Origin: Carboxylicivirga linearis
GTDB taxonomy: Bacteria; Bacteroidota; Bacteroidia; Bacteroidales; Marinilabiliaceae
Direction of reading: 5' to 3'
NCBI RefSeq assembly: GCF_018271995.1
Contig: NZ_JAGUCO010000012.1
Coordinates: 62,001-126,000, forward strand
DNA length: 64,000 nucleotides
Below the pieces are notes generated by a model. It was not told where the DNA came from. It ran no database searches and saw only the letters and a program-made list of their open reading frames with translations. The position numbers and the translations under genes were made by a program. Shown piece by piece: positions 14,154 through 57,110 of the stretch (the first letter of the stretch is position 1; each line of letters starts with the position of its first letter).

Positions 14154-17100
14154 TTATCTTATAATAACTTTACGAATTACTTCATTATTAATTTTAACAA
14201 TTTTAATTCCAGGATTTAATTCAATTTCAAAATTCTCTTGTTGCAGATCTTTGCTCACAAGCAATCTGCCTTGTATATCGTATATACTGATAGTTGAATT
14301 TTTAGGTAAATGTTCAATAAACAAATGATTATTGATTGTGTAAGTGTTTATTATAGAATTATATGCGCCTGGTATAGCAGTTGCTTCAGATGATACTGAT
14401 ACATTGAAAACAAATACTACTCTCTTTTTATCTCCATCTTCCGGAGAATAGGTTAAAGCCTGCATTACTTTATAGCTTTCACTATCATGGCATGCATCAG
14501 GATACTGACCAACATAGAATTCAAAATTATTTAGTTTAAGCTCAGAAAAGATGTAAGAGTTATTACTCCATGTTGTTACGTTACCATTGTTATCAAACCA
14601 ATGTCCAGGGTGTCCTGCAGTTGAATTTATATCGATGGTACCATTTCTATTAATGGCTGAATACTGGATCGAATTGTCAAAAAGTGAAGTTAAGTCTGCC
14701 TGACTGATTCCAAAGAATGATAATACACGTTGCAGATCAGCTTTTATAATATCATATGGATAGACAGTACTTGTTCCTCCAACAAATGGCTCTTGAGTTA
14801 AGTAATATGTAATGGTATCGTTTTCAGATATCGCAGCAGGTAATGGAGTTGCAGAATCTTTGGTGCGTGGAATCCAAACGGCCATTTCACCAATGCCTCG
14901 GTTATCCCATGAATAATAAGGAATGGCTTTGAGCGTTTCATCATTTAATATTACGTCACTTGAAGTTGTTTCTCTGGCAACTTTACCTTCAATATTTAAG
15001 CATAATACACCATTAAGAAGATCAGGTTCGTTTACAGTTGTAATAGTAGCTTCATCTTCAATTACCGAACTAAAAACTGAGTTGTTATCAGGCCATTCCA
15101 TACAGTATAATAGGGGACCGCGTTCCAGTGCTACTTTTCCATCATTTTCAGTAACCATATCATTAGAAATGGTTCGATGAATATCCATTGGCAGATTGAC
15201 AGTTATTACATCTCTGGGGTTCCAATCCCTTGATAAAACAATATAACCTTTGTCTGTTTGATAAGTAGAAAGCTCCTGTCCATTGAGCTTGATTATTACG
15301 TCATCAAATGTCGTTTCCAGATAAGAGTATAAATCTCCGGGAACCGGTTGTCCTTTAGCCCAACCCGGAATACGTATCAATACATTAAAATTTTGAGTAG
15401 ATTCCGGATCAATGTTTATTTCTATATCACCATCCCATGGGTAATTGGTAGTTTGTGAAATATTTACAGAGTCTGTTCCAATACCCAATTTTGTCTCTCC
15501 TTCAACAAAAAGGTTTATATAAACGCTATCGCTTTTTTGAGCATAGATATACCCTGGCATGGATGGAATAAATCGACATAAATTACTTGGACAACAGGCA
15601 CAACCAAACCATTCTTGGCGAGTATTAGAACCATGATTAAATAGATATTTACCATCGGACGCCAAAGGATTAGGATAAAAGAAATGGTCTCCAGACAGAC
15701 TAATTCCCGATATTACACCATTGTATAGAGTTCGTTCGATAATATCGTAATACTTTGAATCACCTTGCTGTAAGAACATGCGATGGTTCCAATAAACGTT
15801 ACCAATAGAAGCACAAGTTTCACAATATGCTGTATGGTTGGGCAATTCGTAGTTTACACCAAAAGCTTCACCATCATGCCTGGCCCCAATACCTCCATTG
15901 ATGTAATATTTTTTATCTACTACATTGTGCCAGATGGTATCTATTGCATGCATATAAGCTTCATTCCCGGTTAAAGCTGCAACATCAGCCATACCCGAAT
16001 ACATGTAAACTGCGCGAACTGAATGACCGACAGCTTCATCCTGATATACCACTGGCTTGTGCGACTGACTGTATTCTTTGCGCATCACCCCTTGATTACC
16101 TCTTAAGTCAAGGAAATATTTTGCTAAATTTATGTAATCCTGATTACCGGTAACTCTGGACATTTTAACTAATCCCATTTCAACAATTTGATGTCCCGGT
16201 TCATAGGTTAAACCTTCTTTTAGGTAGACATCTACCAATAGATCAGCACTTTTTATTGCAATGTCCAGAAGGTTTGTTTTACCTGTTGCCTGGTAATGAG
16301 CTACAGCTGCTTCATATAAATGCCCGCAATTATATAATTCATGACTCAGGTCGGGTGTTTTTTCCCAGCGATTAACCCCTACCCATGAATGAAAATTCCC
16401 AGGTTCACCTGCAGTTCTGGCTGTGTATAAGTATCCGTCCTCTTCCTGCGCAAGACCAATGTATTCAATTAATTTATCCATTTCAGCTTCTAGTTCCTCA
16501 TTAGGAAACATTTGAACAGAATAGGACATTCCTTCTAAAATTTTATATATATCAGTATCATCAAAAGTGTATTCGGTGTTAAAATAGCCATCCATCAAGC
16601 CGGCTGCTTTTAAAAAGTTATCTACCCTTCCGGTACTGTAGCATTGATCCAGCGCAATAGGAATGGTCACATCCTGGTTTTGCTGAATGCGGGGAGCCCA
16701 AAATTGATCTGAAAGCTTTACTTTGTTAAAGGTGATAGGTTGTATAGGATAATCTTTATTTCCAGTAGTTTCTGAAGATTGCATAGCTACATCATATACT
16801 TGCCAATTATCCAGATAAACTTCAGTTGCCGTTTTGCTTCTGTCGTTATTGATCCAACATACGCCGCTTGCCGAACTACCAACATTAAAACTATACTCAA
16901 AATACTGCCAAGCTCCGTTTGTATTAGGAATTAAAAAGTTAATTGAATTGCCACCGGTTAATTCTGCTTTTGATGTTTCAGAACTGCTTAAATTACTACC
17001 TGAATCATATACTCCTGTTTCAAAAGTGCCGTTGGTTTTAATCCATCCGGTAATTTTATACTCTCCTTTGGCAAAGAATCTGTTCTGCACTTCAATGCCT

Positions 17101-18140: not shown

Positions 18141-18159
18141 AGAATTGGATTTAGTGGAT

Positions 18160-20253
18160 TTAATCTTCTTCAATTATTATTACTCCCCAGGGATTTATTT
18201 GAAGAGTTTGTTGTTTCTTTATTTTTGTATTTGTCAGCAGTTCAATGCCTTTCTCATAAGGGAAATTGAATTCTTTAGTGCCAGATGAATAGTTATAATA
18301 ATAGTGAATGGTTTTGCCATCAGTATTAATACCTGATTTAGTTATTAATGGCCAGTGAAGTTCCTGATCGGGTGAAGTAAGTCCAAGTTCTTCTATTTCA
18401 CTCATAAGTATCTTTTCCTGAATAGCATCAGATACCATACAACCTTCGTATATCAATTTTCCTTTGCCATAGTCATTGGATGTGATGGCAGGATACTCAT
18501 CAAAATACCTGTAGTCATAGTATGCTAAGGGTTTGGCTGTTTCAGGAATAATATATTCGGCCCAGGTATGTACTATATTATTCCCTTCACCGACAGCAAA
18601 TGGGTCTCCTTTTAATTTCATCTCCCCGATATTCGAAAATTCCTGGTAGTAAAATCCACAGGCCTCTCGCAGTGGCCCTGGTGCCAAAACCGGACGAACC
18701 ATCGAATTGTCATCACAGAAACCACTCTTAAACTGTAAAATCACATGTCCGCCATTTTTAATGTAATTATTTATTTTCTCTAGTAATTCATCACTGGCTA
18801 TGTAAAGAGAAGGAATGATAAGTAGTTTGTATTCATCGTAATCAAGTGTGTCAGGAAAGACAAAATCGACGCCTACATTATTTCGGTATAAAACATTGTG
18901 AAATTGCCATGTTAAACCCCAATTGTAATAGTTATTATGATCTGGTCCCCAGCCGTTGCCTCCTTTATTAAAAGGCATAAAATTAAGACCCGAGTTAGAA
19001 TCATGGCTAAACAGAATAGCCACTTTATTTTCTTTCTTCAGATTAACCAGTTTCTTTCCAATTTTCTTGAGTTCATGGGCTGTTTTTGACATCTCACGAT
19101 AGGCCCTGTTCGGTTTTAAATCGTGTGATAAAATACCTTTCCAGTAAGTTTCCTGGCCGTAATGAATAGAATGCCAGTGCCAATATTCCACCATATTAGC
19201 GCCGGAACCTAAATGAGCGTATACATTTTGCCTCAATTGTCCCGGGTATGGTGGGCGCTGGATGCGTGAATTCCAGCCCATTGTTTGGGCATTGGTTTCC
19301 ATCACCAGGTAGTTTTGATGTTTAACCGAACGAAAATAATCGCCTGCTAAAGCAATCTCTCGGCCAGTCAGGTGATCTTGTTGATCGTGGTATACATTCA
19401 CACCCATCACATCCATCAATTCGGAGCTTGTAGCCTGATCAACCTCTTCAAAAGCTGTCATGAAACAATGTGTGACAAATTGATCCTCTCTTTTATATTC
19501 GCGAACAATTGCCGATTGCCATTTAAGAAAGTCAGCTACCTCTTTTCGTTTATAACGATCCCACTCCAACTTATAACCTGTATTTGAAATTCCATCACGT
19601 GGGGGTAACTCTTCCCATCCGTCGATATTCATGCCCCAATAATTTAAACCCCAGGTTTTATTGAGATTTTCCGTTGTTTTGAATTTCTTTTTCAGATGAT
19701 TTATGAAACCAACCTGAAAGTCATAATTATTAACTCCTCTGTCGGTGGTTTCATTATCTACCTGAAATCCGATTATTGCAGGATGCTGTACATAATGCTC
19801 CATCAGTTTGCGTATAATACGCTCTGAATAAAAAAGGTAGGTTGGATTGGTCAGGTCCATATTTTGTCTCATACCATAATAAGCCTTGCCTCCTTTTTGA
19901 TATTCCAGCAATACTTCGGGGTGTTTATGCCATAGCCATGCAGGAATAGAATAGGTTGGAGTACCTAGTATGACTTTAATTCCAGCTTGGTGCATTTTAT
20001 CAATGATACGATCCATCCAGGCAAATTCAAACTCACCTTCCCGCGGTTCAAAAAGGCTCCAGGTAGATTCACCCAATCTAACCAGATTGATTCCGGATTC
20101 TTTCATCATGCGGATGTCCTCATCTAACCGTTCTTGGGGCATATACTCATGATAATAAGCGACTCCGTATAATATTTCATCAAATTTTTGGGATTGACTT
20201 TTTCCAATTAAGGAAAATGAAGCTATACAGATCAGTGTAAGGATATATTTCAT
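18160..20253 (-). CDS. GH42 family beta-galactosidase/alpha-L-arabinopyranosidase-like, exported
   Basis: A 697-residue exported protein. It begins with a signal peptide (MKYILTLICIASFSLIGKSQ), followed by a GH42 TIM barrel starting at YGVAYYHEYMPQERLDEDI. The expected catalytic pair is present: Asn167-Glu168 (VDNET, acid/base) and Glu319 (VMETNAQ, nucleophile). A trimerisation-type Rossmann domain follows from about residue 410 and a small C-terminal sandwich ends the protein. Known GH42 activities are beta-galactosidase and alpha-L-arabinopyranosidase, so removal of terminal galactose or arabinopyranose from arabinogalactan-type chains fits this locus. It lies 19 bases upstream of the large GH127 gene and forms a unit with it. 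Family assignment is firm; substrate is inferred. Confidence 0.87.
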   Translation of the reverse strand: MKYILTLICIASFSLIGKSQSQKFDEILYGVAYYHEYMPQERLDEDIRMMKESGINLVRLGESTWSLFEPREGEFEFAWMDRIIDKMHQAGIKVILGTPTYSIPAWLWHKHPEVLLEYQKGGKAYYGMRQNMDLTNPTYLFYSERIIRKLMEHYVQHPAIIGFQVDNETTDRGVNNYDFQVGFINHLKKKFKTTENLNKTWGLNYWGMNIDGWEELPPRDGISNTGYKLEWDRYKRKEVADFLKWQSAIVREYKREDQFVTHCFMTAFEEVDQATSSELMDVMGVNVYHDQQDHLTGREIALAGDYFRSVKHQNYLVMETNAQTMGWNSRIQRPPYPGQLRQNVYAHLGSGANMVEYWHWHSIHYGQETYWKGILSHDLKPNRAYREMSKTAHELKKIGKKLVNLKKENKVAILFSHDSNSGLNFMPFNKGGNGWGPDHNNYYNWGLTWQFHNVLYRNNVGVDFVFPDTLDYDEYKLLIIPSLYIASDELLEKINNYIKNGGHVILQFKSGFCDDNSMVRPVLAPGPLREACGFYYQEFSNIGEMKLKGDPFAVGEGNNIVHTWAEYIIPETAKPLAYYDYRYFDEYPAITSNDYGKGKLIYEGCMVSDAIQEKILMSEIEELGLTSPDQELHWPLITKSGINTDGKTIHYYYNYSSGTKEFNFPYEKGIELLTNTKIKKQQTLQINPWGVIIIEED

Positions 20254-20340: not shown

Positions 20341-20358
20341 TTTTACTCCCATCAAAAC

Positions 20359-22416
20359 CTATTTATTAAAAGAAGTATCATACAACCAAATTCCATAAGA
20401 GTATGCTTTCGAGTGCTTATCAGGTTTAGGACCGTCTTTTCTGTACCACTGGCCTATGTTGGCAAATGGAGTTAAATTTACTTTTACATCTTTACCTTTA
20501 TAAGTTGCTTTTGCTTCATATACAGGGCCCAGCATTTTGTTATCAGGTTTACTTTCCATTGTTGGATGTTCAGATGTGTTTATTCTCAAATCATTTTCTA
20601 AGTTGATATTATCCTCTTCTAATTGAGGATTCCAAACCATATCAACTGCGTAAACTAACGGTCCACGGGTAAAAGCGGATGGAATTCTGTCTGTTGCTGT
20701 TTCTTTGTACATATGTTCACCACCAGGTAAATAGTACATAGAGTATTCGCTATGGTTTTCTCTTTTAATCCATTTTTCTTCCATTGGGAATGTTATATCA
20801 ATAACATCGTGCTTCATCCACTTATTTGAAAGTGTAAGGTATGAACCCGGCTTTATGTCATTAATCTCTTTTCCTTTAACTTTAACTATTGGATGTTTAC
20901 ACCACGAAGGGATCCTAAGAAGTAAATCCTTTTTTACTGGTTTTTCAGTTGTAATTGTCAATTTAATATTCTCAGATTCGGGATATTTGGTTTCTATTGT
21001 AAACTGTAGATCTTTACCTTCATATTCCGATTCCAGATACTGGTTGATAAAGAATGCCGATCCATTTTCGGCATAAGCAAATGTTGGAATGAGCGAGATA
21101 ATTCTATGACCACTGGCAGTACAGCAATCAGGGCCATGGAAGAAGCCTGCTGGCTTAGTTCCATTCGGAGCCGTATGATACCTGCAAAGTCCCTCATCAA
21201 TATCTTGTGCAGCAAATACGTGGTTAATCATTAAACGTTCAATGGCATCAGCATATTTTACATCGCCGGTTATTTCAAGTAACATTTGAGTTAGTTGCAT
21301 CCATGACATGGTTGCACATGTTTCCACAATATTACCTGACAGCGGTTTTACATATCCAAGTTCGTAGTGTTCTGCAACACTTACCCCACCTGTTATATAC
21401 ATTTGTCTTTCTCTGATGTCATCCCATGCACCTTTTACTTTTCGAAGCAAAGTAGTGTCTCCTGTAATGAGATAAAGTCTTAAAAAGCCCATGAAGTTCA
21501 TATGGAAGGCGTGAGAGTGCACATAAGGTTGAAGTTCACCTACGCCCAATTTGCCATCGGCCACAGAGTCCAATCTTGAAAAAGAATCCCAACCACTCCA
21601 TTTGTCAATGTTGCTTACTACCCATTTACTCCAATCCAGGTATTTTTCTTTTCCGGTAAGTTCATACAAACGAGCAACAGGATCTGCAAGTAATGTTCCT
21701 TCCCATGAATAATGTACACTATGACCGGCTGATTGTGAGGTGCCCGCTAGTTTCTTGTGTTTGTTTTGGGGATATCTTAGATCAGATGGCCAGAATCCCA
21801 ATTTATCAGGACCAAAATATTCCAGAAAATAGTCGGCTAATTTCTCAACAGCCACCAAAGCTTTTTCATTGCCTGTTTCTTCATAAACAGTTATAAATGC
21901 ATGAAATACAAAATACAACTCATAAGGATCCATACCTCTTACAGGTCTTTCGGGTGTGCGAAATGATTTTGATGTGGCACCAACATACCCACTTTCTTCC
22001 TGTGAGTCAATAATGCGATCTAAGATAGTCTGTGCTTTTGCTAATAATTGCTGGTCTTCAGCCTGAATGGCAGATAAATAAGCCGACTCTAACCATTTTC
22101 CATGTTGTTCAGCCTTTGTCCAGTTCCATTCTGTATGTTCTCGTTTTACAATAAAATCAACGTATTTGTCTATCGGGAAATTCTTGAGGTATTGATCACG
22201 GTTTACTTTCATTCTGTCTCCGAAAAATCCGGATATGTTTTTAACGGATGAGATCTTTACTGGTTTTTCGGTCAGCTTAATTTTTGTATGCTCTGTTTCC
22301 CCATTACTGCATGATGATAGACTAAAGATTAAACTCCAGATAAAAAAGAATAGATATTCTCTTTTATTTGGAAGTCGGCTACAAGAGACTGATGCCTGTA
22401 ATAAATTCCTTTTCAT
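20359..22416 (-). CDS. Divergent GH127-superfamily (beta-L-arabinofuranosidase-like) lipoprotein
   Basis: A 685-residue protein with an (alpha/alpha)6-barrel pattern like GH127 (AYLSAIQAEDQQLLAKAQTI, DRIIDSQEESGYVGA) followed by beta-sandwich domains. The N-terminus has a hydrophobic segment ending in the lipobox-like SLSSC, so a lipid anchor is likely. The presumed metal site is only partly like GH127: Glu365 and Cys367 in VETCATM, and Cys431-Cys432 in PDCCTAS. The first Cys of CETC and the first Cys of GCACC are missing. The gene lies downstream of the kinase-less regulator, with 227 bases between them, and upstream of GH42. Substrate may differ from arabinofuranose; the family is recognised but the activity is not. 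Confidence 0.75.
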   Translation of the reverse strand: MKRNLLQASVSCSRLPNKREYLFFFIWSLIFSLSSCSNGETEHTKIKLTEKPVKISSVKNISGFFGDRMKVNRDQYLKNFPIDKYVDFIVKREHTEWNWTKAEQHGKWLESAYLSAIQAEDQQLLAKAQTILDRIIDSQEESGYVGATSKSFRTPERPVRGMDPYELYFVFHAFITVYEETGNEKALVAVEKLADYFLEYFGPDKLGFWPSDLRYPQNKHKKLAGTSQSAGHSVHYSWEGTLLADPVARLYELTGKEKYLDWSKWVVSNIDKWSGWDSFSRLDSVADGKLGVGELQPYVHSHAFHMNFMGFLRLYLITGDTTLLRKVKGAWDDIRERQMYITGGVSVAEHYELGYVKPLSGNIVETCATMSWMQLTQMLLEITGDVKYADAIERLMINHVFAAQDIDEGLCRYHTAPNGTKPAGFFHGPDCCTASGHRIISLIPTFAYAENGSAFFINQYLESEYEGKDLQFTIETKYPESENIKLTITTEKPVKKDLLLRIPSWCKHPIVKVKGKEINDIKPGSYLTLSNKWMKHDVIDITFPMEEKWIKRENHSEYSMYYLPGGEHMYKETATDRIPSAFTRGPLVYAVDMVWNPQLEEDNINLENDLRINTSEHPTMESKPDNKMLGPVYEAKATYKGKDVKVNLTPFANIGQWYRKDGPKPDKHSKAYSYGIWLYDTSFNK

Positions 22417-27631: not shown

Positions 27632-28978
27632 TTAATTAATAGTTTGTTGTTCATTAAAGATACTTGTTCCAGATAGGCGAATTTGATAGGGCCATTGCTC
27701 ATCATTTTCTGGTTTAAAATCCATTTCATGAATCCAATGCTCTGTTGGAGCTCCGCAAACCATCAACCAAAGATTAGCTGTATTATCTGGAACTGTAAAT
27801 GTAACAGTATCTGTGTTATTAGAGAAGATTGGACTATAAATACGCTCATTATTTTTTAGTTCAGCAATAAAACCATATTTCCATCCGGCTTTATCTGATT
27901 GAATATTATTGTAGCCATCTGCATCAGTTAGTCCTTTAAACTCCATTGATATTTCTGTTTCTGTGCTAGGAACATTTAACCGTATGCCATTATACCCATA
28001 GTTTTGAGGACAATTCTCTTCTGATATTTGATACCAGCCATTCTTCTTTTCGATCAATTGGGAGGTATGTTTATTGGCAAATTCACTCGCAATTGTTCTA
28101 ATACGATCCATGTCCCAGGTCATAAATTTCAGATATGCATCAGCTATTTCATTATTGAAGGCTTCTTGATCCATTTCCTGAATGCGTTTATAAGTCATTA
28201 CCGGATCTTCTCCCTTTTTTGCATTTCTCCAAAGCTTGCCAATAAACTCTCTTCCGTATTTATTCGACCAGTACTCCAAAACATAAGGGGAGCAGTACAT
28301 ATTATCTTCATGCAAAAATGCTTTATGTGTATTCTTCATAAAGTTATCAAAATGATAGGTTTCCAGCTGCATCCAGTTCGGATAAAATTGAAAAAGCATG
28401 TATTGCGAAGTCATTTCATAGATAGATCCCGGATCGAAACCATCATTACCGTCGGCCGCAACCTGATACTGAAAAGCATGTCCCATCTCATGAGCCATGG
28501 CTGCATATGGTTTTTGTTGAATGCGGTTGGGCGATAGCCACATAATACCAATTGAGTCTTTTTCACCTCCGCCATAAACCGTACCATCATCGTTGTGATA
28601 GGCAAAAATCAGCATTCGAATACTATCGGTTAGAGATTGTCCTTTTTCTATGAATTGTAAGCTATCGCGATAAAACACAAACATCTTTTCACTTTCTTCC
28701 ATCAAATCATGCATCTGAAATCGATATTTCTCATCGCTTGTAGTTGACGGATCTTCACCAAATGCCTTCTCCCATAAAATTGCCAGGTTAGCAGTTTCTT
28801 TCATTCGATATCGGCTAAGTTGAGCCAGGCTATCCGAAAAATCATTCCCTTTTTCCACCTTCCATATCTCGGATGGGAAATAAGTTATTTTTTCAACATC
28901 ACTTATATTGTTGTTGATACAAGAAACAAGTAATGCAGAAGAAAGGAGGCCGGATAGTATTTTAGAAATTCTATTCAT
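27632..28978 (-). CDS. HExxH metallopeptidase-like lipoprotein (DUF6055-type)
   Basis: A 448-residue lipoprotein with lipobox (SSALLVSC). The central region has the zinc-binding motif AHEMGHAFQYQ (His163, Glu164, His167), followed downstream by aromatic-rich helices (YMLFQFYPNWMQLETYHF and SPYVLEYWSNKYG). A C-terminal beta-sandwich-like part ends in WPYQIRLSG. A paralogue sharing these blocks lies at 49376-51418, immediately downstream of the SusCD genes. The family matches DUF6055 as I remember it; its biochemical function is not established. The zinc motif and a glycan locus suggest a peptidase or glycopeptidase on the glycoprotein substrate, which is inference. It is expressed with GH97 from the regulatory region at 28979-29168. 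Confidence 0.72.
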   Translation of the reverse strand: MNRISKILSGLLSSALLVSCINNNISDVEKITYFPSEIWKVEKGNDFSDSLAQLSRYRMKETANLAILWEKAFGEDPSTTSDEKYRFQMHDLMEESEKMFVFYRDSLQFIEKGQSLTDSIRMLIFAYHNDDGTVYGGGEKDSIGIMWLSPNRIQQKPYAAMAHEMGHAFQYQVAADGNDGFDPGSIYEMTSQYMLFQFYPNWMQLETYHFDNFMKNTHKAFLHEDNMYCSPYVLEYWSNKYGREFIGKLWRNAKKGEDPVMTYKRIQEMDQEAFNNEIADAYLKFMTWDMDRIRTIASEFANKHTSQLIEKKNGWYQISEENCPQNYGYNGIRLNVPSTETEISMEFKGLTDADGYNNIQSDKAGWKYGFIAELKNNERIYSPIFSNNTDTVTFTVPDNTANLWLMVCGAPTEHWIHEMDFKPENDEQWPYQIRLSGTSIFNEQQTIN

Positions 28979-47986: not shown

Positions 47987-48022
47987 TGTATTTAATTTTT
48001 GATGATTCAAAGTTTATGAAGG

Positions 48023-48085
48023 TAAAAGTAGATGAGGTCTGGTATTTTTTATGTCACGTTTTCATTATTATCTAGTACAAATGTT
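48023..48085 (-). promoter_or_regulatory. Promoter and activator-site candidate of the GH127 unit
   Basis: A 12-of-15 match to ACTTGCACAAATGTT lies at 48071-48085, overlapping the last base of the CotH gene. TACTTTTA (48023-48030, minus strand) is a 7-of-8 match to the -7 box. The 40 bases between them equal the spacing found upstream of susC, which supports both calls. Confidence 0.55.
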
Positions 48086-49368
48086 TATTTGATGCCTGCA
48101 GGATAATTGTTTATAACATCAGATAGGTAATTGACTCTCTTTTCAATCCAATTTTCCATTCTGTTAATTTCAGTAATGTTATCCTTATCAATTGGCCATC
48201 TTTCATTTTCTCTTTCCATTGCAATTTTAAATTCGTCAGCATAGAGAAGGGTACTTGCCCAATATTCAGAGATGATTTTATCTTTAATTTCAAGCCAACG
48301 CTGTTTGTATTTATTTACAAATTGTTGGTTTTTGAATAAGTCTGTGAAGAATGAAGGCACATGGTAGCCTCCCGTGTGAGAAACAGGTGATGTTCCTAAC
48401 ACCAATTCCTGATAGCTATTAAAATAATTATGACCGGTGTACATTGTTCCCCAATCAAAGTCAAAACCAGCATCAAAATCCCAGAGTGGACCCATCGTCC
48501 ATTTGCCATTTTTATTTTTATGGATGTAGATACTTCTGGGAGCATCAACTTCCACATTGTAAACAAGTTCTTGTATTATCATGAAGTCAATAAACGACGC
48601 GATATCTAAGAGAGATTCAACCTCTGAATAAACAGCATTATTGATGGCATTTTCAAATAGGGCAAATTCATTTTTGATTTCAAGTAGTTTATCTTCGGTG
48701 ATGATTTTTGGATTTTTAATGCACACTGGCATATGGTATTTTTCTGACCAAAAGTTATCAGTTTCATCCGGCGCAAGATAGGGGCCGTCGTCTGCATCAA
48801 GCGATAGTAATATTCCTTCATCCTCCAGAATGGCTACCCTGTTTGTTCCTTGTTCAATTTGCTCGGTAAGTTGATATAATCCTATATATTCATCATTTAG
48901 AGTTACTTCCACGTAACGGGAGTGGTTAGGGAATGGTATTCTCAGGTTTTTGCCAACGGTAAATACAAAAGTATTCATTAGGTGAGTGGGGTCACGGTAG
49001 TTGGATAATAGGACCCAATCTTTATCAGCCGGTAGTCCAAGTATAGGAGCTTTTGTGTTAAGCTTAATACGGTAAGGTTTTTTGGGGTACCAAAGCCAGG
49101 TAGAGTTTCCTCTGCCTCTTATTCTTGCATCGGCTGTGTAATTCCAATTTTCATTATCAGATTCGAATTGAACAATACAATTTAGGTACCTTTCTTTGGA
49201 AGTTATTTCAGTTTGATTTTCTGTGGTAATATAAAGCTTAGCAACCTGATAGTTTTCTTCCACAATCTCATCATCCTTTTTTTGCTTCAAAGGAATATCA
49301 TCTTTTCTGCAACTCGAAAGAATAAAGACTATCGTGCAAAAGAAAACTATCAGGTGTTTTAGCTTCAT
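48085..49368 (-). CDS. CotH kinase family lipoprotein
   Basis: A lipoprotein of about 427 residues (lipobox FILSSC) of the CotH family, whose Bacillus founder phosphorylates spore-coat proteins with an atypical protein-kinase fold. Recognisable blocks are RIRGRGNSTWLWYPKKPYRIKL, WVLLSNYRDPTHLMNTFVF, the YIGLYQLTEQIEQGTNRV segment, and the metal-binding GPLWDFDAGFDFDW. The start was set at the ATG at 49368, which begins the signal peptide and follows the upstream stop by 7 bases. It is the last gene of the susC-susD unit. CotH-like proteins recur in Bacteroidota surface operons, but their role there is not established. Confidence 0.82.
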   Translation of the reverse strand: MKLKHLIVFFCTIVFILSSCRKDDIPLKQKKDDEIVEENYQVAKLYITTENQTEITSKERYLNCIVQFESDNENWNYTADARIRGRGNSTWLWYPKKPYRIKLNTKAPILGLPADKDWVLLSNYRDPTHLMNTFVFTVGKNLRIPFPNHSRYVEVTLNDEYIGLYQLTEQIEQGTNRVAILEDEGILLSLDADDGPYLAPDETDNFWSEKYHMPVCIKNPKIITEDKLLEIKNEFALFENAINNAVYSEVESLLDIASFIDFMIIQELVYNVEVDAPRSIYIHKNKNGKWTMGPLWDFDAGFDFDWGTMYTGHNYFNSYQELVLGTSPVSHTGGYHVPSFFTDLFKNQQFVNKYKQRWLEIKDKIISEYWASTLLYADEFKIAMERENERWPIDKDNITEINRMENWIEKRVNYLSDVINNYPAGIK

Positions 49369-49375
49369 CAATCTT

Positions 49376-51418
49376 TTATTGAATAGTAATATTAAATACA
49401 AATGTTATTATATACTCAGTTCCATCCTTTGTATAAACAAAAGCTTCTTTAATAGTATAAGTATCATTAGCAGAACTTTTACCTGGGAACTGACCGATAG
49501 AGAATTGCATGTTAGCAGGATCAAATTCCGAAAATACCTTACTATCATTATCTGATCCCCATCCAATGACAGCACCATTACTGTCGAACCAGAAACCATA
49601 TCCATTGGCTGTGGTTTCGTAATTCAATGATTCATCAGGTTCAATGGCAGCAAAAGCAATTTTACCTTCAGCTGGAGTTGATTTAGCATCTAACATATTA
49701 GAGGCAATGGCTGAAGGTTGCATTGATAGAGCCTGAGCTACCTTTGAAATATCTCCGTTGGTATTCAGGTTAACAGTTGTTCCGGTGTAATTAACGCCAT
49801 CGGCTGGAAACTCAACATTATATGTCAATGTGATACTTTCCGGATCTTGATTTGGATCTACGGTAACATTGCCTAATAAATCGGTGTTGGTAAACTTAAC
49901 CTTGTAAGGCCATTGATCATCATTGCTTTCTTTTTCATCCCAAGGATGCGCCTCGTAAGTGGCCGGTGCTCCTAAAACAACTAACCAGAGTCTTTCGCAA
50001 TTGGCAGGTACCACAAATTCAATGTCAGCAGATGTTTTTCGGTTCATATCACCGTATACTCTTGTACCATCAGACAATAACGCAACATAGCCATATCTCC
50101 AACCAGCTCTTGTTTGAGAACTTGCATTATAGTTAGTTGTGGTTAGTGTTGTTTCTTCATCTGAGTAGGTACCTGGATCATCAGGAGCTAAAGCTGAACC
50201 TGGTGTTAAGGCTGTAAATGAAGTAACAATGGTTGTGCCTGCTTCGGGTACATTCAGAGGTACTACATTATAGCCAGTTGAACCCGGACAGTTACTATAG
50301 GCTACCTGATAACTTCCGTCATTTAGTTGGTAGAACTTATATTTAAACTGACCTATAAAGTTTTCACCATTGGCTCGAATTGCATCAATATCCCAGGTTA
50401 CCATTTTGGCTGCAGCTTCATATAATTCTGCATTTAAATCACTTACGCTTAATCCATAAATTCGCATATATGCTTCCAGTGGATCTTCCGGACTTGCCGA
50501 TTCTCTCCATACTTTGGCCAAGGCATCAATACCATGTTTATCAGTCCAGTAATATTGCAACCAGTAACTAGCATACCGTTGGTGTTCATGACAAAAATGG
50601 CGATGATAATTTTCAGAATAGACAGAGAAATTATAGGATGTAAAAGCTTCCATAGGATAACTCTGGAAAGATTGCCATTGAGCACATTGTTCCCAAAATG
50701 CATTACCTCCATTACCTCCAAATCCATATCTGAATCCACGTGTAAAATCGTTGGTGATACCACCATAAGCCAATAAATCGGCATACACCTGATACTGGAA
50801 GCTATGACCAATTTCGTGAGCTATAGTTGAACCAACAGGTTTACAAGTAGAAGGATTGACCCAAAGGGCACCTATTACATCATCGTATCCGGCTCCATAT
50901 GCCATCCATTCGGTTGTATAATGCAAATAGATCTGCATTTTATACTTATCCAGATTGGATGTTGAAGTTCCGAGATCAGCAAACTTTAATGTATTAATAT
51001 TAATGGCAAAAAACTCTTCGGCCTTTTCCAATAAATCATCTACATCAATTCTTAAAGCTGCTTCAATATCTGTTGAATTAGGATTATCGCCAAAACCTTC
51101 TTCCCAGAAAACAAAGAAATGTTCAGACTGCTTGCTTCGCACAAAAGACCATTTACTGTCGCTGCGCAACATATCCATATTATTGAATTCATTGGGCTTA
51201 TAGTATTTGTCGAAATCTGCTACATCGTCTTCCGATAAGATGATTACATCCGATGTAACATCCGTTGTATCTGATGGTTCAGGTTCGGGATCGGGTGTTT
51301 GTGCAACAATGGAATTGTTCTTTCCACATGACGCAAATAGCAGTAAAATTAGGATTGTAGGTATGAAGCAAAAGCCGGCATACACCGGCTTTTGTTTATT
51401 TAAAATTTTGAAATTCAT
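49376..51418 (-). CDS. HExxH metallopeptidase-like lipoprotein with DUF6055- and DUF4859-type domains
   Basis: A 680-residue lipoprotein (LLLFASCGK). The central block contains AHEIGHSFQYQ (His201, Glu202, His205) and aligns by eye with the shorter paralogue at 27632-28978 through conserved features such as YWLQYYWTDKHG, WRYGYVALLSDG and WPYKVKF. Residues from about 535 form a DUF4859-like domain (GFWFDSNGAVIGW, FSIGQFPG, FVFNI), shared with the next protein and with the C-terminus of the large GH127. Its place directly after the SusD/SGBP genes suggests outer-membrane surface exposure. A surface zinc hydrolase with a glycan-binding module is the working interpretation; no activity is known. 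Confidence 0.75.
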   Translation of the reverse strand: MNFKILNKQKPVYAGFCFIPTILILLLFASCGKNNSIVAQTPDPEPEPSDTTDVTSDVIILSEDDVADFDKYYKPNEFNNMDMLRSDSKWSFVRSKQSEHFFVFWEEGFGDNPNSTDIEAALRIDVDDLLEKAEEFFAININTLKFADLGTSTSNLDKYKMQIYLHYTTEWMAYGAGYDDVIGALWVNPSTCKPVGSTIAHEIGHSFQYQVYADLLAYGGITNDFTRGFRYGFGGNGGNAFWEQCAQWQSFQSYPMEAFTSYNFSVYSENYHRHFCHEHQRYASYWLQYYWTDKHGIDALAKVWRESASPEDPLEAYMRIYGLSVSDLNAELYEAAAKMVTWDIDAIRANGENFIGQFKYKFYQLNDGSYQVAYSNCPGSTGYNVVPLNVPEAGTTIVTSFTALTPGSALAPDDPGTYSDEETTLTTTNYNASSQTRAGWRYGYVALLSDGTRVYGDMNRKTSADIEFVVPANCERLWLVVLGAPATYEAHPWDEKESNDDQWPYKVKFTNTDLLGNVTVDPNQDPESITLTYNVEFPADGVNYTGTTVNLNTNGDISKVAQALSMQPSAIASNMLDAKSTPAEGKIAFAAIEPDESLNYETTANGYGFWFDSNGAVIGWGSDNDSKVFSEFDPANMQFSIGQFPGKSSANDTYTIKEAFVYTKDGTEYIITFVFNITIQ

Positions 51419-51423
51419 ATGTT

Positions 51424-52431
51424 TTATTCAAGTTTAGCATTTATAATAAACCTAAAGAATTTGGTATCATCAGTTGTATCTCTATAACCAACGCAGAGAT
51501 TGAATTCAAGTCCTGAAGCAAGTTCTGGAGCTCTACCAATATATAGAACTTTATCATTTAAGTTTGTTTCTGCATATAGTGAGAAACCTGCATCTCCCCA
51601 AAAGCAAACTTTCATTTGATCATCGAGCCAGTAACCAGGAGGATTGGCAGTGTAATCACTTGTTAAATCCCATATTGGATTTGCTGCGTCAGTAATATCA
51701 ACCATATTCATATGCATTGTGCCGCCATCATTGTGATCAAAACTATTAACGAAATCATCCAGTGGCATTCCGATATTGTACTCTATAATATCGGCATATT
51801 GAGTTAAGTCAATTCCAAAGCTAGCATAGTCTCCTGTAGGAATACTAATTGAGGTGATAATTATGGATGGATCTGTTACAGAAACATTAAAAACAAAACG
51901 TACGTAATTATCGTAATCAGGTCCATCAACCGCAAAACCAACATTAACTTGAAAAACTGTTCCTGCAGTTGCATCATCCATTACATCAACGATTAATGAT
52001 TTGGAGTTGGTGTCTATTTCTACTGAAGCTGTTAGTCTTTCATCTCCTTCTGAAGAAATTACACCAGAAGTATTATAGTACCAGCCGGTTGAGCCTTTTG
52101 TTTTAGCTGCTTTATTCCAAACATTTTTACTTAGATTAATATTGTAGAATAAAACACTTCCATTGTTTAGACCACTAATAACCTCATCGACTGTCATTCC
52201 CATTTGAGATTCAAATACTTCAGCGTAATCTTCGAGTGGTATAGTGTAAGCTTCAAATCGGCCGACTTCAAATTCAGTTTCAGTTGTAATAGTGGCATCT
52301 CCATCCACTCTTAAATAGGGATTTTCATCAGCTGTATAGACATGTTTAGATGAAAAATCATCGTAGTCTTCGCAGCTATATAGGCCTATTAAAAAGCAGG
52401 TTATTAGAAAATATATATTTATCTTTTTCAT
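51424..52431 (-). CDS. Surface lipoprotein with two DUF4859-like domains (candidate surface glycan-binding protein)
   Basis: A 335-residue lipoprotein (GLYSCED) made almost entirely of two related domains, about 55-190 and 195-335. Each ends with a strand like RFVFNVSV or FFRFIINAK and contains a GWYY or GYWLDD aromatic turn. The pattern resembles DUF4859. The gene occupies the position after susD where SusE/SusF-type surface glycan-binding proteins are normally encoded, 21 bases downstream of it. A non-enzymatic, glycan-binding role in the SusCD complex is inferred from position and lipidation. Confidence 0.7.
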   Translation of the reverse strand: MKKINIYFLITCFLIGLYSCEDYDDFSSKHVYTADENPYLRVDGDATITTETEFEVGRFEAYTIPLEDYAEVFESQMGMTVDEVISGLNNGSVLFYNINLSKNVWNKAAKTKGSTGWYYNTSGVISSEGDERLTASVEIDTNSKSLIVDVMDDATAGTVFQVNVGFAVDGPDYDNYVRFVFNVSVTDPSIIITSISIPTGDYASFGIDLTQYADIIEYNIGMPLDDFVNSFDHNDGGTMHMNMVDITDAANPIWDLTSDYTANPPGYWLDDQMKVCFWGDAGFSLYAETNLNDKVLYIGRAPELASGLEFNLCVGYRDTTDDTKFFRFIINAKLE

Positions 52432-52452
52432 GTGTTACTTTTTAAATAAGAA

Positions 52453-54111
52453 TTAGTATCCAGGATTTTGAACCAACTTAGAATTTGAATCTAGGAAGTC
52501 TTGCGGAATTGGGAATATATTTTTTTGAGGATTGTTATGTGCATCAAAGCAGAATCGTGATTTTCCAGTATACACATTATTCCCGTTTGTTAATTGGAAT
52601 CGAATCAGATCCTGACGACGATGATGTTCACCAACAAACTCCCAGGCAAGATCGTCTAATAAACCTCCAAATTCGATATCAGCTCCACCTTCTTCTGTAA
52701 TGATCCAGTTATCATCTTCTCCTTCTAAAGCTGTATTTTCCTGATGACCGTAATTATAGACACTAGGACCTTTTAATTGCTCTACTGTACGTGTTGCTTT
52801 TTCTGGGTTTGATTTAAAAGCTCTTTGGCGTATCATGGTTACAATTTCAGCTGCTGTTTGTTCCGTTTCTCCATTGTATCCCCCCAAGCGTAACAGGCAC
52901 TCTGCTTTAATCATGTAAGCATCTGTAAGTCTAAAAAATGGTACATCATCTCCATAAGTTCCTTCTTCACCAGAAACAATTTCATATTTCTTGAAGCGTG
53001 CGCCTTCCATTTGGTATGCGCCAGGGTTGTCAATACTGTGTACACTCTGGCTATAATTCAATGGAGTACCTTCAATTGTTATCGGAGAACCTCCCTGATC
53101 AACTTGAGGTCCCATTAGCCATGTATCAGTAAATCTGGAATCATCTGGATCGTAAGTGTCGATAAATTGAGGAACACCACAACTACCATTCCAAGGTGCT
53201 GCTTTCAGGCCAAAGGTGGCACTACTTGCACCATGAAGAGCTTTGTTAGATAAGTAATTACCGGTAGCTCCATATTGAAAGCTATAAACAATTGAATAAA
53301 TAACCTCAGGGCATGATGATCCATCAGCCATAAACGGTTCGGTGTATGATGCTGAAAGAGAAAATGCTCCATCGTTAATTATTTCACTTACTTCTTCGTA
53401 AGCTTTTTGGTAATATGTATTATCATCTGTTCCAAACCATGCATTATAGTTTAAATACATTTTTGCCAAAACCATACAGGCAGCATAATAGTTAAACTGA
53501 CCGTATTCTATTTCCTGGTCCTTAAGAGCACTTTTTACAAATTGCATTTCTTGTTCAACAAAGTCAAAAACAACTTGTGGATCCTCTTGGTCTGGAATAA
53601 AACCTGGCTCGTGTGTAAAAACGGTATCCATAGGAACGTTTCTGAAGTTATCTAAAAGAAGGTAATATGCTAACCCTCTAACTCCCCTTAATTCAGCCGA
53701 TGAGGTTGCAGACTCTTTTACTAGATCATATTCTAATAATTGATTACAACTACTTATGGTACGGTACGAATGGTTCCAAACAGTCCAAAAGTGACCTGTT
53801 GTTGGGGTGTATGTATGTTTATGCATAGTTACATATAAGTCTCCCCATCCAACCCCAATACGAAGAGGTGTCATTATTAAGTCTGAAGATTCCTCATATA
53901 TATCAAAAGTACCGTTCCATCCCCAGTATAACCATCTTAGTTCTTGGTAGACAGAACCAAACATGGCTCTTATATCTTCATCCTGAAATTCATAATCGTC
54001 TTCAGGAATTTCGCTATATAGTTTCTCATCCAAATTGGTACATGCAGTAATGCTTACCAAAATAAGTATCAGAGAAGCTAAAACTTTGTTGATTTTAATA
54101 TGTAGTTTCAT
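52453..54111 (-). CDS. susD: SusD/RagB family outer-membrane glycan-binding lipoprotein
   Basis: A 552-residue SusD homologue with lipobox (LVSITACTN). It has the early helical region EDIRAMFGSVYQEL, the HSYRTISSCNQLLEY motif, tetratricopeptide-like helices and a C-terminal segment (EHHRRQDLIRFQL and IFPIPQDFLDSNSKLVQNPGY) that closes the family. It forms the lid on the SusC barrel and binds oligosaccharides at the cell surface. It is 38 bases downstream of the susC gene. Specificity cannot be read from SusD sequence; neighbours suggest arabinose-rich glycans. Confidence 0.95.
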   Translation of the reverse strand: MKLHIKINKVLASLILILVSITACTNLDEKLYSEIPEDDYEFQDEDIRAMFGSVYQELRWLYWGWNGTFDIYEESSDLIMTPLRIGVGWGDLYVTMHKHTYTPTTGHFWTVWNHSYRTISSCNQLLEYDLVKESATSSAELRGVRGLAYYLLLDNFRNVPMDTVFTHEPGFIPDQEDPQVVFDFVEQEMQFVKSALKDQEIEYGQFNYYAACMVLAKMYLNYNAWFGTDDNTYYQKAYEEVSEIINDGAFSLSASYTEPFMADGSSCPEVIYSIVYSFQYGATGNYLSNKALHGASSATFGLKAAPWNGSCGVPQFIDTYDPDDSRFTDTWLMGPQVDQGGSPITIEGTPLNYSQSVHSIDNPGAYQMEGARFKKYEIVSGEEGTYGDDVPFFRLTDAYMIKAECLLRLGGYNGETEQTAAEIVTMIRQRAFKSNPEKATRTVEQLKGPSVYNYGHQENTALEGEDDNWIITEEGGADIEFGGLLDDLAWEFVGEHHRRQDLIRFQLTNGNNVYTGKSRFCFDAHNNPQKNIFPIPQDFLDSNSKLVQNPGY

Positions 54112-54149
54112 GTATTATCTTTTTTAAAGTTTTTAATTACCTGTTATTA

Positions 54150-57110
54150 TTAGAAGGTAACATTAAGTCCTACCGTAAATGATCGGATAGAAGGATATTT
54201 ATCTCTATCATCCATTCCAGCGCTAAAAAAGTTTGTTGCTAACTCAGGATCCAATCCTGAATATTTAGTTAATACAAATGCGTTTTCAACTGAAGCATAG
54301 ATTCTCAGTTTAGATAAATATTGGTTAGGAGTAAATGTATATCCTAATGTTATATTATCCATTTTCATATAATCTCCATCTTCAAGATAGTGGCTAACGA
54401 AGGTTTGAGTTAAGTTGCTAGCCAGTGGAGCTACTCCATATACATCATCGGCAGCTGTTTTTAAGCGGTTGTAAGCAATAGAGTTGTTTTCATAAAACAT
54501 ACGTTGTCCGTTTAATATTTTATGACCAAATTGACCACTCATTTGCATTACTAAATCAAGCTTCTTGTAAGTAAAAGTATTATTCCAACCAATACTTACT
54601 TTTGGTAAACCTGATCCAAGGTATTGTCGATAGTCCTCATCGGCTTTAACGTCATCATCAAATTTAACTGATTCTCCTGTTTCAGGATTTTCAATTAACC
54701 AGAAGCCATCCTCTGTTAATCCTACAGATTTCATACCCCAGAATTGCCCCATTGACATGCCTATTTCAACTCTATGTGTTGGCAGTGAGATAGGATCTGT
54801 TGCATAGTTCGTAAGAAGGAAATTTTCTGATTCGTAAAGGTCATTTGACAAACTCACAAGTTCGTTTTTATTATGTGTAGCTGTCACTATAGTTTGCCAT
54901 TTAAAATGTCCTACTTGAACAGGAATAGCATTAACAGAAATGTCGAATCCTTCGTTTTTCATTTCACCAACATTCGCTAATGTTTGAGTAAAGCGGTTTG
55001 GAGGAACTGGAACATTATACCAATACAACATATCAGTTGTTGTTTTCCAATAATAGTTACCGGAAACACTTAAGCGATTGTTAATAACAGATAGATCAAG
55101 ACCTACATTATATTCCTTCGAAACCTCCCATTTTAAATCAGGGTTTGGATTAGATTTAATTGCTAATCCTTTAGCCCAGTCAGTACCATTAAAATAGCTA
55201 CCTCCATCATATCCGTATCTAACTAATGATTGATAAGGATCGTTTGGTATTACACCGGTTACACCATAACCAGCTCTTAGTTTCAGGTTATTTAACCAAT
55301 CGAATGATTGCATAAAGCTTTCATTACTTAATGTCCAACCTAAAGAAACAGATGGAAAATTACCCCATTTATAATTATCACCAAACTTTGATGATCCCTC
55401 ATGACGGATACTGGCTAGTACATTATATTTGTTTTTGTAGCCATAGCTAACTCTTCCAAAAAATCCAATCAATGTATCTTCTCTTTTGTCGCTATCCATC
55501 CCGGCATTACCATCGTTTAAAGCTGTACCAACACCCATTCTGTTGTATAAATAGTAATCAGTTGGAAATCCATAGTTAGATGCCCAGAAACTTTCTTGCA
55601 TATGGTCTTGATAACTATAGCCACCTAAAGCTGATATACGATGTTCATTTACATTTTTTTCATAGTTAGAAGTCAGTTCTAAATAATCGTTTTGATCATT
55701 GTATGAACTTTGATAAGCCTCTCCAACACGGTTGTTTGTTTGTGCTGTATAAAAGCTTGATGTTGTATAAGTCTTATTATTTGAAAAACTTCTGTGGGTG
55801 GCTAACATTAAGTTTGTTTTCCATCCCTCAATAGGTTCAATTGTTATATTACCAGTAAGTCGTGTATATTCACCTCTGTTTTCGCCAATTTTTTCATCTA
55901 AAATAGCAACAGGGTTGTAATATTGAAGTACTGTGAAATCCTCTCTATAAGAACCATCTTCATTGTAAACAGGTAAAGTTGGATTTCGTATTAAAGCTTG
56001 ACGATAAGCGTAGGAAGGATCAGAAATTTCATTTGATCTAAAACCTTTAACTAGGTTTAAATTAAGTTTTAACATATCATCCAGAAAATACTGATTGATA
56101 TCAAAATTAACTCTTAATTGATCGTTTCCAGTTGATTTAATAATACCTTGCTCTTCTCGATAGGTGATATTTGCAGCATATGTTGCATTATCTGTTCCAC
56201 CTGAAACGCTAACGCTATGGTTTTGAGTAAAAGCATTTTGAGAGATTCCTTTTAACCAGTCGGTATCGTATCCTGCATCTTTAAAGGCTGTTAATCCATT
56301 TCTAATGTCTTCTGGACCCATAAATTCAGCCTTTTTATAAAATTCAGAAGCAGTATAATAACCATCATAAGTTACGACAGCTTTGCCTTGGCGTTGGCCA
56401 CCTTTTGTAGTAATGATAATTACGCCTGCTGCACCTCGTGTTCCATAGATCGCTGCTGCTGATGCATCTTTTAATACATCAATTGAAGCAATATTTTCAG
56501 GAGCTACTGTGTTCAGGCTTCCCGGTATACCATCAACTAATACTAAAGGTGAAGAATTACCTTCTAAAGATACCATACCTCTAATATTAATACTTGAAGA
56601 AGCATTCGGATCACCAGATGCTTTAGTGATTACTAAACCAGCTACCTGACCTTTAATTAAATCAGCTGCATTCTGGACATTACCAGCTAAGAAGTCTTCT
56701 GATTTAACACTTGAGATGGCACTTGTTACATCTCCTTTTTTCTGTGTACCGTAACCGATAGCAACAATTTCATTCAGACCAACAGATTCTGGTTCCAGAT
56801 TGATGGTAATAAAGGATTGATCGCCGACTGTTATTTCAAAGTCCTCGTATCCTATAAAAGACACCACTAAAACATCGGTTTCACTAACATCAATACTAAA
56901 CTTACCTTCGATATCGGTAATAGTTCCGTCTGAAGTTCCTTTAATCATTATTGCCGCCCCGGGCAATGGAGTTTTGGTCTCATCATAAATTACACCTTCA
57001 ACTCTATTTTGAGCAAATAGCGTTGATGAAGTAAACAAGAAACCCAGTACCAATAAAATTGATATAGGGTTACAACATGACCTTGTAGATCGTTTGATTT
57101 TGTCATTCAT
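54150..57110 (-). CDS. susC: SusC/RagA family TonB-dependent outer-membrane transporter
   Basis: A SusC-like transporter of about 986 residues. It has a signal peptide (ISILLVLGFLFTSSTLFAQ), a carboxypeptidase-like regulatory domain (VEGVIYDETKTPLPGAAI), a plug with the family motif SASVDVLKDASAAAIYGTRGA-like segment (here IDVLKDASAAAIYGTRGAAG), and a 22-strand barrel ending in FTVGLNVTF. The start was set at the ATG at 57110. A more upstream ATG at 57149 is in frame, but it would add 13 residues before the signal peptide and overlap the predicted -7 box. It imports oligosaccharides across the outer membrane with the SusD partner. It is the first gene of a five-gene unit. Confidence 0.95.
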   Translation of the reverse strand: MNDKIKRSTRSCCNPISILLVLGFLFTSSTLFAQNRVEGVIYDETKTPLPGAAIMIKGTSDGTITDIEGKFSIDVSETDVLVVSFIGYEDFEITVGDQSFITINLEPESVGLNEIVAIGYGTQKKGDVTSAISSVKSEDFLAGNVQNAADLIKGQVAGLVITKASGDPNASSSINIRGMVSLEGNSSPLVLVDGIPGSLNTVAPENIASIDVLKDASAAAIYGTRGAAGVIIITTKGGQRQGKAVVTYDGYYTASEFYKKAEFMGPEDIRNGLTAFKDAGYDTDWLKGISQNAFTQNHSVSVSGGTDNATYAANITYREEQGIIKSTGNDQLRVNFDINQYFLDDMLKLNLNLVKGFRSNEISDPSYAYRQALIRNPTLPVYNEDGSYREDFTVLQYYNPVAILDEKIGENRGEYTRLTGNITIEPIEGWKTNLMLATHRSFSNNKTYTTSSFYTAQTNNRVGEAYQSSYNDQNDYLELTSNYEKNVNEHRISALGGYSYQDHMQESFWASNYGFPTDYYLYNRMGVGTALNDGNAGMDSDKREDTLIGFFGRVSYGYKNKYNVLASIRHEGSSKFGDNYKWGNFPSVSLGWTLSNESFMQSFDWLNNLKLRAGYGVTGVIPNDPYQSLVRYGYDGGSYFNGTDWAKGLAIKSNPNPDLKWEVSKEYNVGLDLSVINNRLSVSGNYYWKTTTDMLYWYNVPVPPNRFTQTLANVGEMKNEGFDISVNAIPVQVGHFKWQTIVTATHNKNELVSLSNDLYESENFLLTNYATDPISLPTHRVEIGMSMGQFWGMKSVGLTEDGFWLIENPETGESVKFDDDVKADEDYRQYLGSGLPKVSIGWNNTFTYKKLDLVMQMSGQFGHKILNGQRMFYENNSIAYNRLKTAADDVYGVAPLASNLTQTFVSHYLEDGDYMKMDNITLGYTFTPNQYLSKLRIYASVENAFVLTKYSGLDPELATNFFSAGMDDRDKYPSIRSFTVGLNVTF

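Follow-up and report, generated by a model that had tools for sequence, protein, structure and literature searches.

The stretch of DNA analysed here (the window) consists of 64,000 nucleotides of the 6.05-Mb genome of Carboxylicivirga linearis, positions 62001–126000 of contig C33, and contains a polysaccharide utilization locus (PUL) of 43 kb. The PUL comprises 19 large open reading frames (ORFs) on the minus strand, running from position 57149 down to 14154; the coordinates of its genes given below all refer to that strand. Adjacent SusC and SusD genes accompany glycoside hydrolases (GH) of families GH127, GH146, GH43, GH97, and GH42 and a hybrid two-component regulator (HTCS), the combination by which Bacteroidota PULs are recognized. 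The locus also encodes three proteins with a zincin-type HExxH motif and an Xaa-Pro aminopeptidase. We regard it as a probable PUL for extensin-type hydroxyproline-rich glycoproteins (HRGPs), of which both the glycan and the protein backbone would be targets; the most unusual part of this PUL is its family of peptidases resembling Pro-Pro endopeptidases (PPEPs).

The genes for uptake are a SusC/RagA outer-membrane transporter (54150..57149; TIGR04056 725.5 bits, over cut-off), a SusD-type lipoprotein (52453..54111; PF07980) and, directly after it, a DUF4859 protein (51424..52431; PF16151), for which we propose from its position a role in surface substrate binding. DUF4859 is found in two further proteins of the locus, a GH127 (14154–18173) and a peptidase (49376–51418), and this recurrence suggests a shared substrate-binding module. 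The HTCS (29169..33233) combines Reg_prop, Y_Y_Y, HisKA, Response_reg, and HTH_18 domains, and domain matches identify a second regulator, of Reg_prop/Y_Y_Y/AraC type, at 22644..25490. None of these genes, nor that of a CotH-like protein described below, was listed in a preliminary description of the locus, which had named only its glycoside hydrolases and peptidases.

Six ORFs within 14154–48010 match PF07944, which bears out the three GH127, one divergent GH127-like and two GH146 genes of that description; the GH43, GH42, GH97, and M24 aminopeptidase genes are likewise borne out by Pfam matches. The GH127 C-terminal domain is present in GH127c (45590..48010; beta-L-arabinofuranosidase-type), in GH127b (43159..45561), and in a third GH127 that has an N-terminal extension and a C-terminal DUF4859 (14154..18173; PF16151), while DUF4986/DUF6805 domains mark the GH146 pair, GH146a (35511..37883; DUF6805) and GH146b (39902..42265). 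In the divergent enzyme (20359..22416), PF07944 matches in two pieces. The ExC and CC motifs, the zinc/nucleophile motifs of GH127/GH146, are kept in all six (as ETC in GH127c and the divergent enzyme). Six of the eight GH127/146 genes of the host genome, where two of nine matches are pieces of one gene, lie in this locus. The GH43 protein (33331..35469; PF04616), a proposed alpha-L-arabinofuranosidase, also carries F5/8-type-C and laminin-G modules. GH97 (25681..27624) is of the retaining alpha-galactosidase type, being closest to the alpha-galactosidases of PDB entries 3a24 and 5e1q and retaining an Asp where the 5e1q sequence has Gly, and GH42 (18160..20253) matches PF02449.

The lack of a visible GH121 enzyme had been considered to weaken a strict extensin reading. 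Such an enzyme is indeed not seen among the 19 ORFs, 18 of which fall into other Pfam families and the last of which is a 277-aa zincin, no GH121-specific model having been searched. The damage to the extensin reading is nonetheless less than feared, because the accessible part of one study (PMC10850190) reports that two GH146 enzymes, XeHypBA1 and Bll4HypBA1, act on Araf-beta-Hyp, that is, take arabinofuranose (Araf) directly off hydroxyproline (Hyp), so that exo-trimming could stand in for GH121. According to the same portion of that study, the GH146 enzyme Bll3HypBA1 is barely active on Hyp-linked Araf, and GH146 membership alone thus does not settle specificity.

At E ≤ 0.01, neither Pfam nor NCBIfam has a match for the secreted 277-aa zincin (42281..43114). 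Nine of 71 genomes of the host family, Marinilabiliaceae, contain a relative, as do 165 tblastn-confirmed stretches of the named genome collection, and the carriers span Marinilabiliaceae as well as Bacteroidales metagenome-assembled genomes (MAGs) labelled rumen or gut. An alignment of 69 of 81 zincin ORFs with the window protein (70 sequences; long ORFs, one fragment, and near-duplicates were left out) yielded an AlphaFold2 model with a pLDDT of 89.9 and a pTM of 0.84. Foldseek comparison of this model with the PDB returned nine matches at E ≤ 0.001, all of them Pro-Pro endopeptidases (PPEP-2, 3.1e-6; PPEP-3, 8.6e-6; PPEP-1, 8.8e-5), with a probability of 1.00, at an identity of only 16–19% across the nine structural alignments. 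A first model, built from 9 sequences (pLDDT 67.7), had given weaker PPEP matches, none at E ≤ 0.001. Residues H166, E167, H170, Y205, and E212 are invariant in the 70 sequences, and the catalytic set of PPEP-3 is given as His153, Glu154, His157, Tyr190, and Glu197 in the accessible text of PMC12828418, with the same Tyr-to-Glu spacing of 7. The fold and catalytic set are thus predicted to be of the Pro-Pro endopeptidase (M34-like) type, from which we infer a Pro-Pro specificity. Two MAGs contain ORFs of about 1150 aa (L144:7289-10741 and L145:3157-6606) whose BLAST match is to the zincin and whose Pfam matches are to Sortilin/BNR beta-propellers.

The other two HExxH proteins are putative Svx-like gluzincin peptidases with a DUF6055 domain, DUF6055a (27632..28978; PF19527 460.8 bits) and DUF6055b (49376..51418; PF19527 543.6 bits), the second of which carries DUF4859 C-terminal to the peptidase domain. 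The preliminary description had called all three HExxH proteins lipoproteins. Their motifs are confirmed, and both DUF6055 proteins are likely lipoproteins by the signals, which were assessed by eye and with a simple pattern; the lipoprotein status of the 277-aa zincin is uncertain, because its candidate lipobox Cys is replaced by Tyr in the 95%-identical orthologue of another genome of the genus (G215). In the two DUF6055 proteins the motif reads HEMGH and HEIGH and has a Glu downstream, and the HE.GH pattern occurs in 27 of the 30 DUF6055 ORFs examined (it is missing in G143, G032a, and G032b). They match the Svx model NF040510 with 65.8 bits (DUF6055a, E 3.1e-18) and 71.3 bits (DUF6055b, E 6.3e-20), without reaching the equivalog cut-off of 625 bits, and the HExxH of DUF6055a, at residue 163, lies inside the matched stretch 130–289. 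Judged by these scores, both are distant relatives, not members, of Svx; DUF6055b had no PDB sequence match. As reported in the accessible portion of PMC13164431, recombinant Svx, a gluzincin, degraded a carrot extensin preparation and neither mucin nor concanavalin A, and requires a second domain said to recognize arabinose chains. DUF6055 is rare in the order (16 of 198 genomes over cut-off), and for at least 7 of 25 strong matches, including the two in the window, a GH127/146 gene is no more than 10 kb away, where gene counts and genome sizes predict about 1.0 (P 3.5e-5; distances taken by hand). The host genome holds a third DUF6055 gene (G000:C148:129582-130853, 1083-aa ORF), on a contig without a GH127/146 match. 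The Xaa-Pro aminopeptidase (M24; 38026..39804; PF00557/PF16188), with an N-terminus that lacks a signal peptide, is the PUL-resident paralogue of a copy elsewhere in the host genome to which it is 45% identical.

Two genomes of the same genus (G215 and G203) keep the genes from SusC through GH97, apart from CotH, in synteny at 73–95% identity. When about 20 kb beyond GH97 was searched in both by tblastn with the 19 window proteins, nothing but the end of GH97 was found; both genomes have further GH127-type genes elsewhere. Positions 25681–57149 are therefore a conserved core PUL, and because the cassette genes do not lie beside GH97 in these two genomes, positions 14154–25490 look like an added side cassette with its own regulator at 22644..25490, comprising in addition the divergent GH127-like enzyme, GH42, and the GH127 with DUF4859. 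The low end of this cassette adjoins a phage-type integrase (12614–13864) and an AbiEii-type toxin gene (11571–12563), beside cobalamin biosynthesis genes. Larger or smaller subsets of the PUL occur in G200, G243, G245, and G248, and only the zincin and GH146 were found in the stretches examined of G226 and G235. In the loci of other genera of the family, SusC/D, DUF6055, GH43, GH127, zincin, and GH146 are found in varying subsets, to which Pfam and NCBIfam matches add a DPP-IV-type S9 peptidase, two further kinds of M24, a GH27 alpha-galactosidase, an MFS/POT-type transporter, DUF5695, and HypD; proline peptidases of different families thus share the neighbourhood of the zincin. An orthologous PUL in a genome of the same order (G165) has the order HTCS, GH127, SusC, SusD, DUF6055, a 906-aa protein, GH43, GH127, and DPP-IV, with no HypD match in the genome at 1e-250. 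Its 906-aa protein (L042:18674 to L043:1391; G165:C1 about 843674-846391) is a fusion of GH97 (residues 33–663) with a zincin domain (residues 668–903, E 8e-93).

We compared the neighbourhoods of 80 of the 165 zincin stretches with those of 40 zincin-free GH127/146 loci, hand-picked from an order-level list, and 20 hand-picked arbitrary loci, each locus covering at most 10 kb either side and many being ended by contig ends. Because the categories of neighbour were drawn up from the proteins of zincin loci, these loci are at an advantage in the counts that follow (zincin, GH127/146, and arbitrary loci, respectively): DPP-IV was found in 34/80, 2/40, and 1/20 (in one of the 34, L172, the match is an S9 protein of 22% identity), M24 in 23/80, 0/40, and 0/20, HypD in 14/80, 0/40, and 0/20 (at ≥42% identity over ≥300 aa; a 40% cut-off gave 13), the HypD activase in 18/80, 0/40, and 0/20 (at ≥35%), DUF6055 in 13/80, 0/40, and 1/20, GH27 in 13/80, 1/40, and 1/20, and GH127/146 in 32/80, 39/40, and 0/20. 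No zincin ORF was recognized in one of the 80 loci (L154), and one of the 40 controls (L192) had no GH127/146 match with the reference proteins. L-glutamate gamma-semialdehyde (P5C) dehydrogenase, present in 13/80, 0/40, and 0/20 loci, is the commonest zincin neighbour outside the reference protein list, and its representative exceeds the TIGR01236 cut-off. In total, 51 of the 80 zincin loci have at least one Pro/Hyp gene. M24 and S9 are broad families, with 4–6 and 2–6 matches per genome, respectively, in the nine zincin-bearing genomes of the family, and all 32 full-length DPP-type proteins of zincin loci have the GxSxGG serine motif. For SusC, SusD, and GH43, zincin loci show no significant excess over the GH127/146 controls, and GH97 is more frequent in these controls (4/40) than in zincin loci (1/80). 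The CotH-like gene of the window (48085..49401; PF08757), whose product is likely a lipoprotein, overlaps the DUF6055b gene and recurs in 9 of the 80 zincin neighbourhoods, yet neither same-genus locus has it. In L119, L158, L160, and L165, genes of xylose isomerase and xylulokinase type are found in the vicinity of the zincin (representatives from L165 and L119 were scanned).

A link to hydroxyproline catabolism emerges within the family. HypD is the glycyl radical enzyme trans-4-hydroxy-L-proline dehydratase; two such proteins of other-genus loci were scanned and scored over the curated cut-off (1189.6 and 1193.7 vs 1100; best PDB match 6vxc, a HypD, 4.5e-287), and the one adjacent radical-SAM activase scanned had the HypD activase as its best model, below its cut-off. 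HypD exceeds the cut-off in 24 of 71 family genomes, including all nine with a zincin and 15 of the 62 others (Fisher 1.8e-5); outside the host genus, it is found in 6/6 zincin-bearing versus 5/51 other genomes (Fisher 1.3e-5). In four of the nine zincin-bearing genomes, HypD is at most 15 kb from the zincin, and in all nine a copy of the zincin has an M24 or DPP-IV gene no farther away than that. The PUL of the host itself has no DPP-IV among its 19 scanned ORFs. In ten loci (L143, L148, L150, L153, L155, L159, L167, L168, L170, and L176), from Bacteroidales MAGs, some of them labelled rumen or omasum, and from Phocaeicola oris, the zincin lies near a P5C dehydrogenase gene, in many cases with M24 and HypD/activase, in some with CotH or a 2Fe-2S/FAD oxidoreductase of about 1092 aa, and with no GH127/146 in the stretch examined; these are apparently clusters for the catabolism of Pro/Hyp peptides.

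Extensin backbones consist of Ser-Hyp4 repeats covered with arabinose, and peptide bonds linking one Pro/Hyp residue to the next resist cleavage. The accessible part of PMC5371791 describes extensin as carrying alpha-Gal on Ser and one to five beta- or alpha-linked Araf on Hyp. A locus with an alpha-galactosidase-type GH97, a GH43, and GH127/146 enzymes matches this chemistry in its gene content, as does the GH27 alpha-galactosidase in a zincin locus of another genus; the fusion of a galactosidase with a Pro-Pro-type peptidase also fits extensin well, because the alpha-Gal on Ser stands beside arabinosylated Hyp. The proposal of the preliminary description, that the substrate is an arabinosylated Pro/Hyp-rich glycoprotein whose protein part is digested too, is thus supported by partly independent lines, namely, the PPEP fold, the Svx homology, the Pro/Hyp neighbours, and the GH97–zincin fusion. 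The gene families, catalytic motifs, synteny, fusion, and neighbourhood enrichments are supported by sequence or structure comparison, and it is from these that we infer the activity of every enzyme, the order of the steps, and which HRGP (extensin, arabinogalactan protein [AGP], or algal) is the substrate. In the scheme that we propose, the DUF4859 protein, which would be located at the surface, and SusD would hold the glycoprotein while GH43 takes off terminal alpha-Araf, GH127/GH146 shorten the beta-Araf chain down to Hyp, and GH97 takes alpha-Gal off Ser. The DUF6055 peptidases would cut the chain while it is still glycosylated, and the PPEP-like zincin would cut between neighbouring Pro/Hyp residues after these have been exposed. 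Import of sugars and glycopeptides through SusCD would follow, the presumably cytoplasmic Xaa-Pro aminopeptidase would trim the imported peptides, and in this host the released Hyp may pass to HypD and P5C enzymes, which are encoded elsewhere in its genome and beside the zincin in several relatives.

Several observations weigh against this interpretation. Within the stretches of at most 10 kb each way, the Pro/Hyp genes are all missing from 29 of the 80 zincin loci and GH127/146 is missing from 48, so that the zincin family may extend beyond extensin PULs. Fisher values for these comparisons are optimistic, because the 80 loci share ancestry and are not independent, and because the controls were hand-picked, mostly from other genomes. 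The host HypD lies on another contig (C100), surrounded by no PUL genes except a distant M24 relative, and HypD exceeds the cut-off in 13 of the 14 genomes of the host genus, with or without a zincin. Among 395 Bacteroidota genomes, HypD was found in only one of six zincin carriers, the host genome, two of the six zincin matches being weak and genes possibly being missed since up to six zincin and up to two HypD candidates were scored per genome; as the association holds in the family and not in this phylum sample, HypD is a recurrent, not a required, partner of the zincin. The sequence-level link of the zincin to known M34 peptidases also appears weak: PF07737, a Pfam family of an M34 peptidase, is reached at E ≤ 0.01 by 7 of the 70 members, the window protein not being among them, 8 of the 70 have weak M90 matches, and in the PDB the zincin profile finds a single match with E ≤ 1, to an M34 domain (E 0.025). 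Finally, GH127c most resembles PDB 6ex6 (1091.7 bits), the best solved relative, which is BT3674, the Bacteroides thetaiotaomicron GH127 of the arabinogalactan PUL BT3674-87.

This last likeness raises the alternative of a PUL for type II arabinogalactan, the glycan of AGPs, in which GH127/146 would remove terminal beta-Araf and the peptidases would only loosen the protein core. BT3674-87 is listed as an arabinogalactan PUL in the accessible part of PMC3243724, and GH42 could be a galactosidase. That gene, however, belongs to the side cassette and is not found beside GH97 in the same-genus loci; moreover, no GH16, GH35, GH2, GH105, or GH30 was over cut-off in the 19 ORFs scanned (weak sub-cut-off GH88/105 matches fell on GH127 genes), which leaves the single GH43 as the only candidate beta-1,3-galactanase, and a reading confined to sugars does not predict DPP-IV, M24, HypD, and P5C dehydrogenase near the zincin. 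We consider this alternative unlikely. A PUL for pectic arabinan, with extra beta-arabinofuranosidases and incidental peptidases, is highly improbable. It would draw on the resemblance of GH146b to 5opj (best PDB relative, 517.6 bits), which is BT0349. BT0349 is active on arabinan-derived oligosaccharides according to the accessible text of PMC10850190. Yet the scans of the locus ORFs gave no GH51 match, the GH43 protein scores 51 bits with the endo-arabinanase AbnA model, whose cut-off is 480, and not one of the 40 zincin-free GH127/146 loci has M24, HypD, or DUF6055.

The zincin and DUF6055 peptidases might instead serve Pro/Hyp-rich proteins in general, such as animal collagen or secreted bacterial proteins, the beta-arabinofuranosidase PUL being one of several unrelated contexts. 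In favour are the zincin loci noted above that lack Pro/Hyp genes or GH127/146; in addition, seven of the 80 loci (L143, L148, L153, L159, L167, L168, and L170) have the zincin beside P5C dehydrogenase and HypD, six of them with M24 as well, and no GH127/146 in the stretch, and PPEP-1 cleaves adhesion proteins, as stated in the accessible part of PMC11460543. We nonetheless find such a general role very unlikely for this locus, for the zincin has a GH127 gene on one side and a GH146 gene on the other in the window and in the two same-genus loci, adjoins GH146 in six other family genomes, and is fused to GH97 in one relative.

The reading of the locus as an HRGP-directed PUL can be extended to a broader proposal, which we advance tentatively and rate at somewhat less than an even chance: PPEP-like zincins may be widespread Bacteroidota Hyp-Hyp/Pro-Pro endopeptidases for plant HRGPs and, together with Svx-like peptidases, beta-arabinofuranosidases, DPP-IV/Xaa-Pro peptidases, HypD, and P5C dehydrogenase, may form a complete pathway from extensin to arabinose plus glutamate, in which deglycosylation licenses backbone cleavage. 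The combination of arabinose-stripping enzymes, a predicted Pro-Pro-type endopeptidase, and the links to Hyp catabolism in relatives would provide a testable whole route for extensin. It would also give an unnamed zincin family a candidate substrate class, DUF6055 a family setting, and DUF4859 a candidate binding role and, if true, would mean that PULs feed on both the glycan and the protein of a cell-wall glycoprotein. Among the open-access papers listed by literature searches, no title or abstract opening described a Bacteroidota extensin PUL or a PUL-linked Pro-Pro endopeptidase; among these papers, DUF4859 appeared in none and DUF6055 in one, which concerns an Aspergillus degradome.

The nearest known systems share parts of this gene set. 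The HypAA/HypBA1/HypBA2 system of Bifidobacterium longum likewise directs GH43 and GH127/GH146 enzymes at Hyp-linked beta-arabinofuranosides (accessible parts of PMC7263609 and PMC10850190); the locus described here differs in that no GH121 is seen, SusCD takes the place of an ABC transporter, and the gene set also includes peptidases and an Xaa-Pro aminopeptidase. Xanthomonas euvesicatoria has the hypBA1/BA2/AA homologues XCV2724/2728/2729, with a GH146 active on Araf-beta-Hyp (accessible parts of PMC6085000 and PMC10850190), the accessible text of PMC6085000 naming the three glycan enzymes only. Like the arabinogalactan PUL BT3674-87, as presented in the available portions of PMC3243724 and PMC10850190, our locus combines an HTCS with GH127, but, compared with that PUL by description only, it has no recognized galactanase-type family and does have peptidases. 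The DUF6055 proteins share with Svx the match to its model, in one case across the HExxH region, and the HExxH motif followed by Glu; they differ in scoring about a tenth of the cut-off, in being encoded inside a PUL, and in that an acyltransferase-like domain is reported in Svx whereas one of the two proteins here has a C-terminal DUF4859. Likewise, the zincin resembles PPEP-1, -2, and -3 in predicted fold, with E-values down to 3.1e-6, and in its catalytic residues and Tyr–Glu spacing, but shares only the low identity given above with these enzymes and is encoded in a sugar locus of the Bacteroidota.

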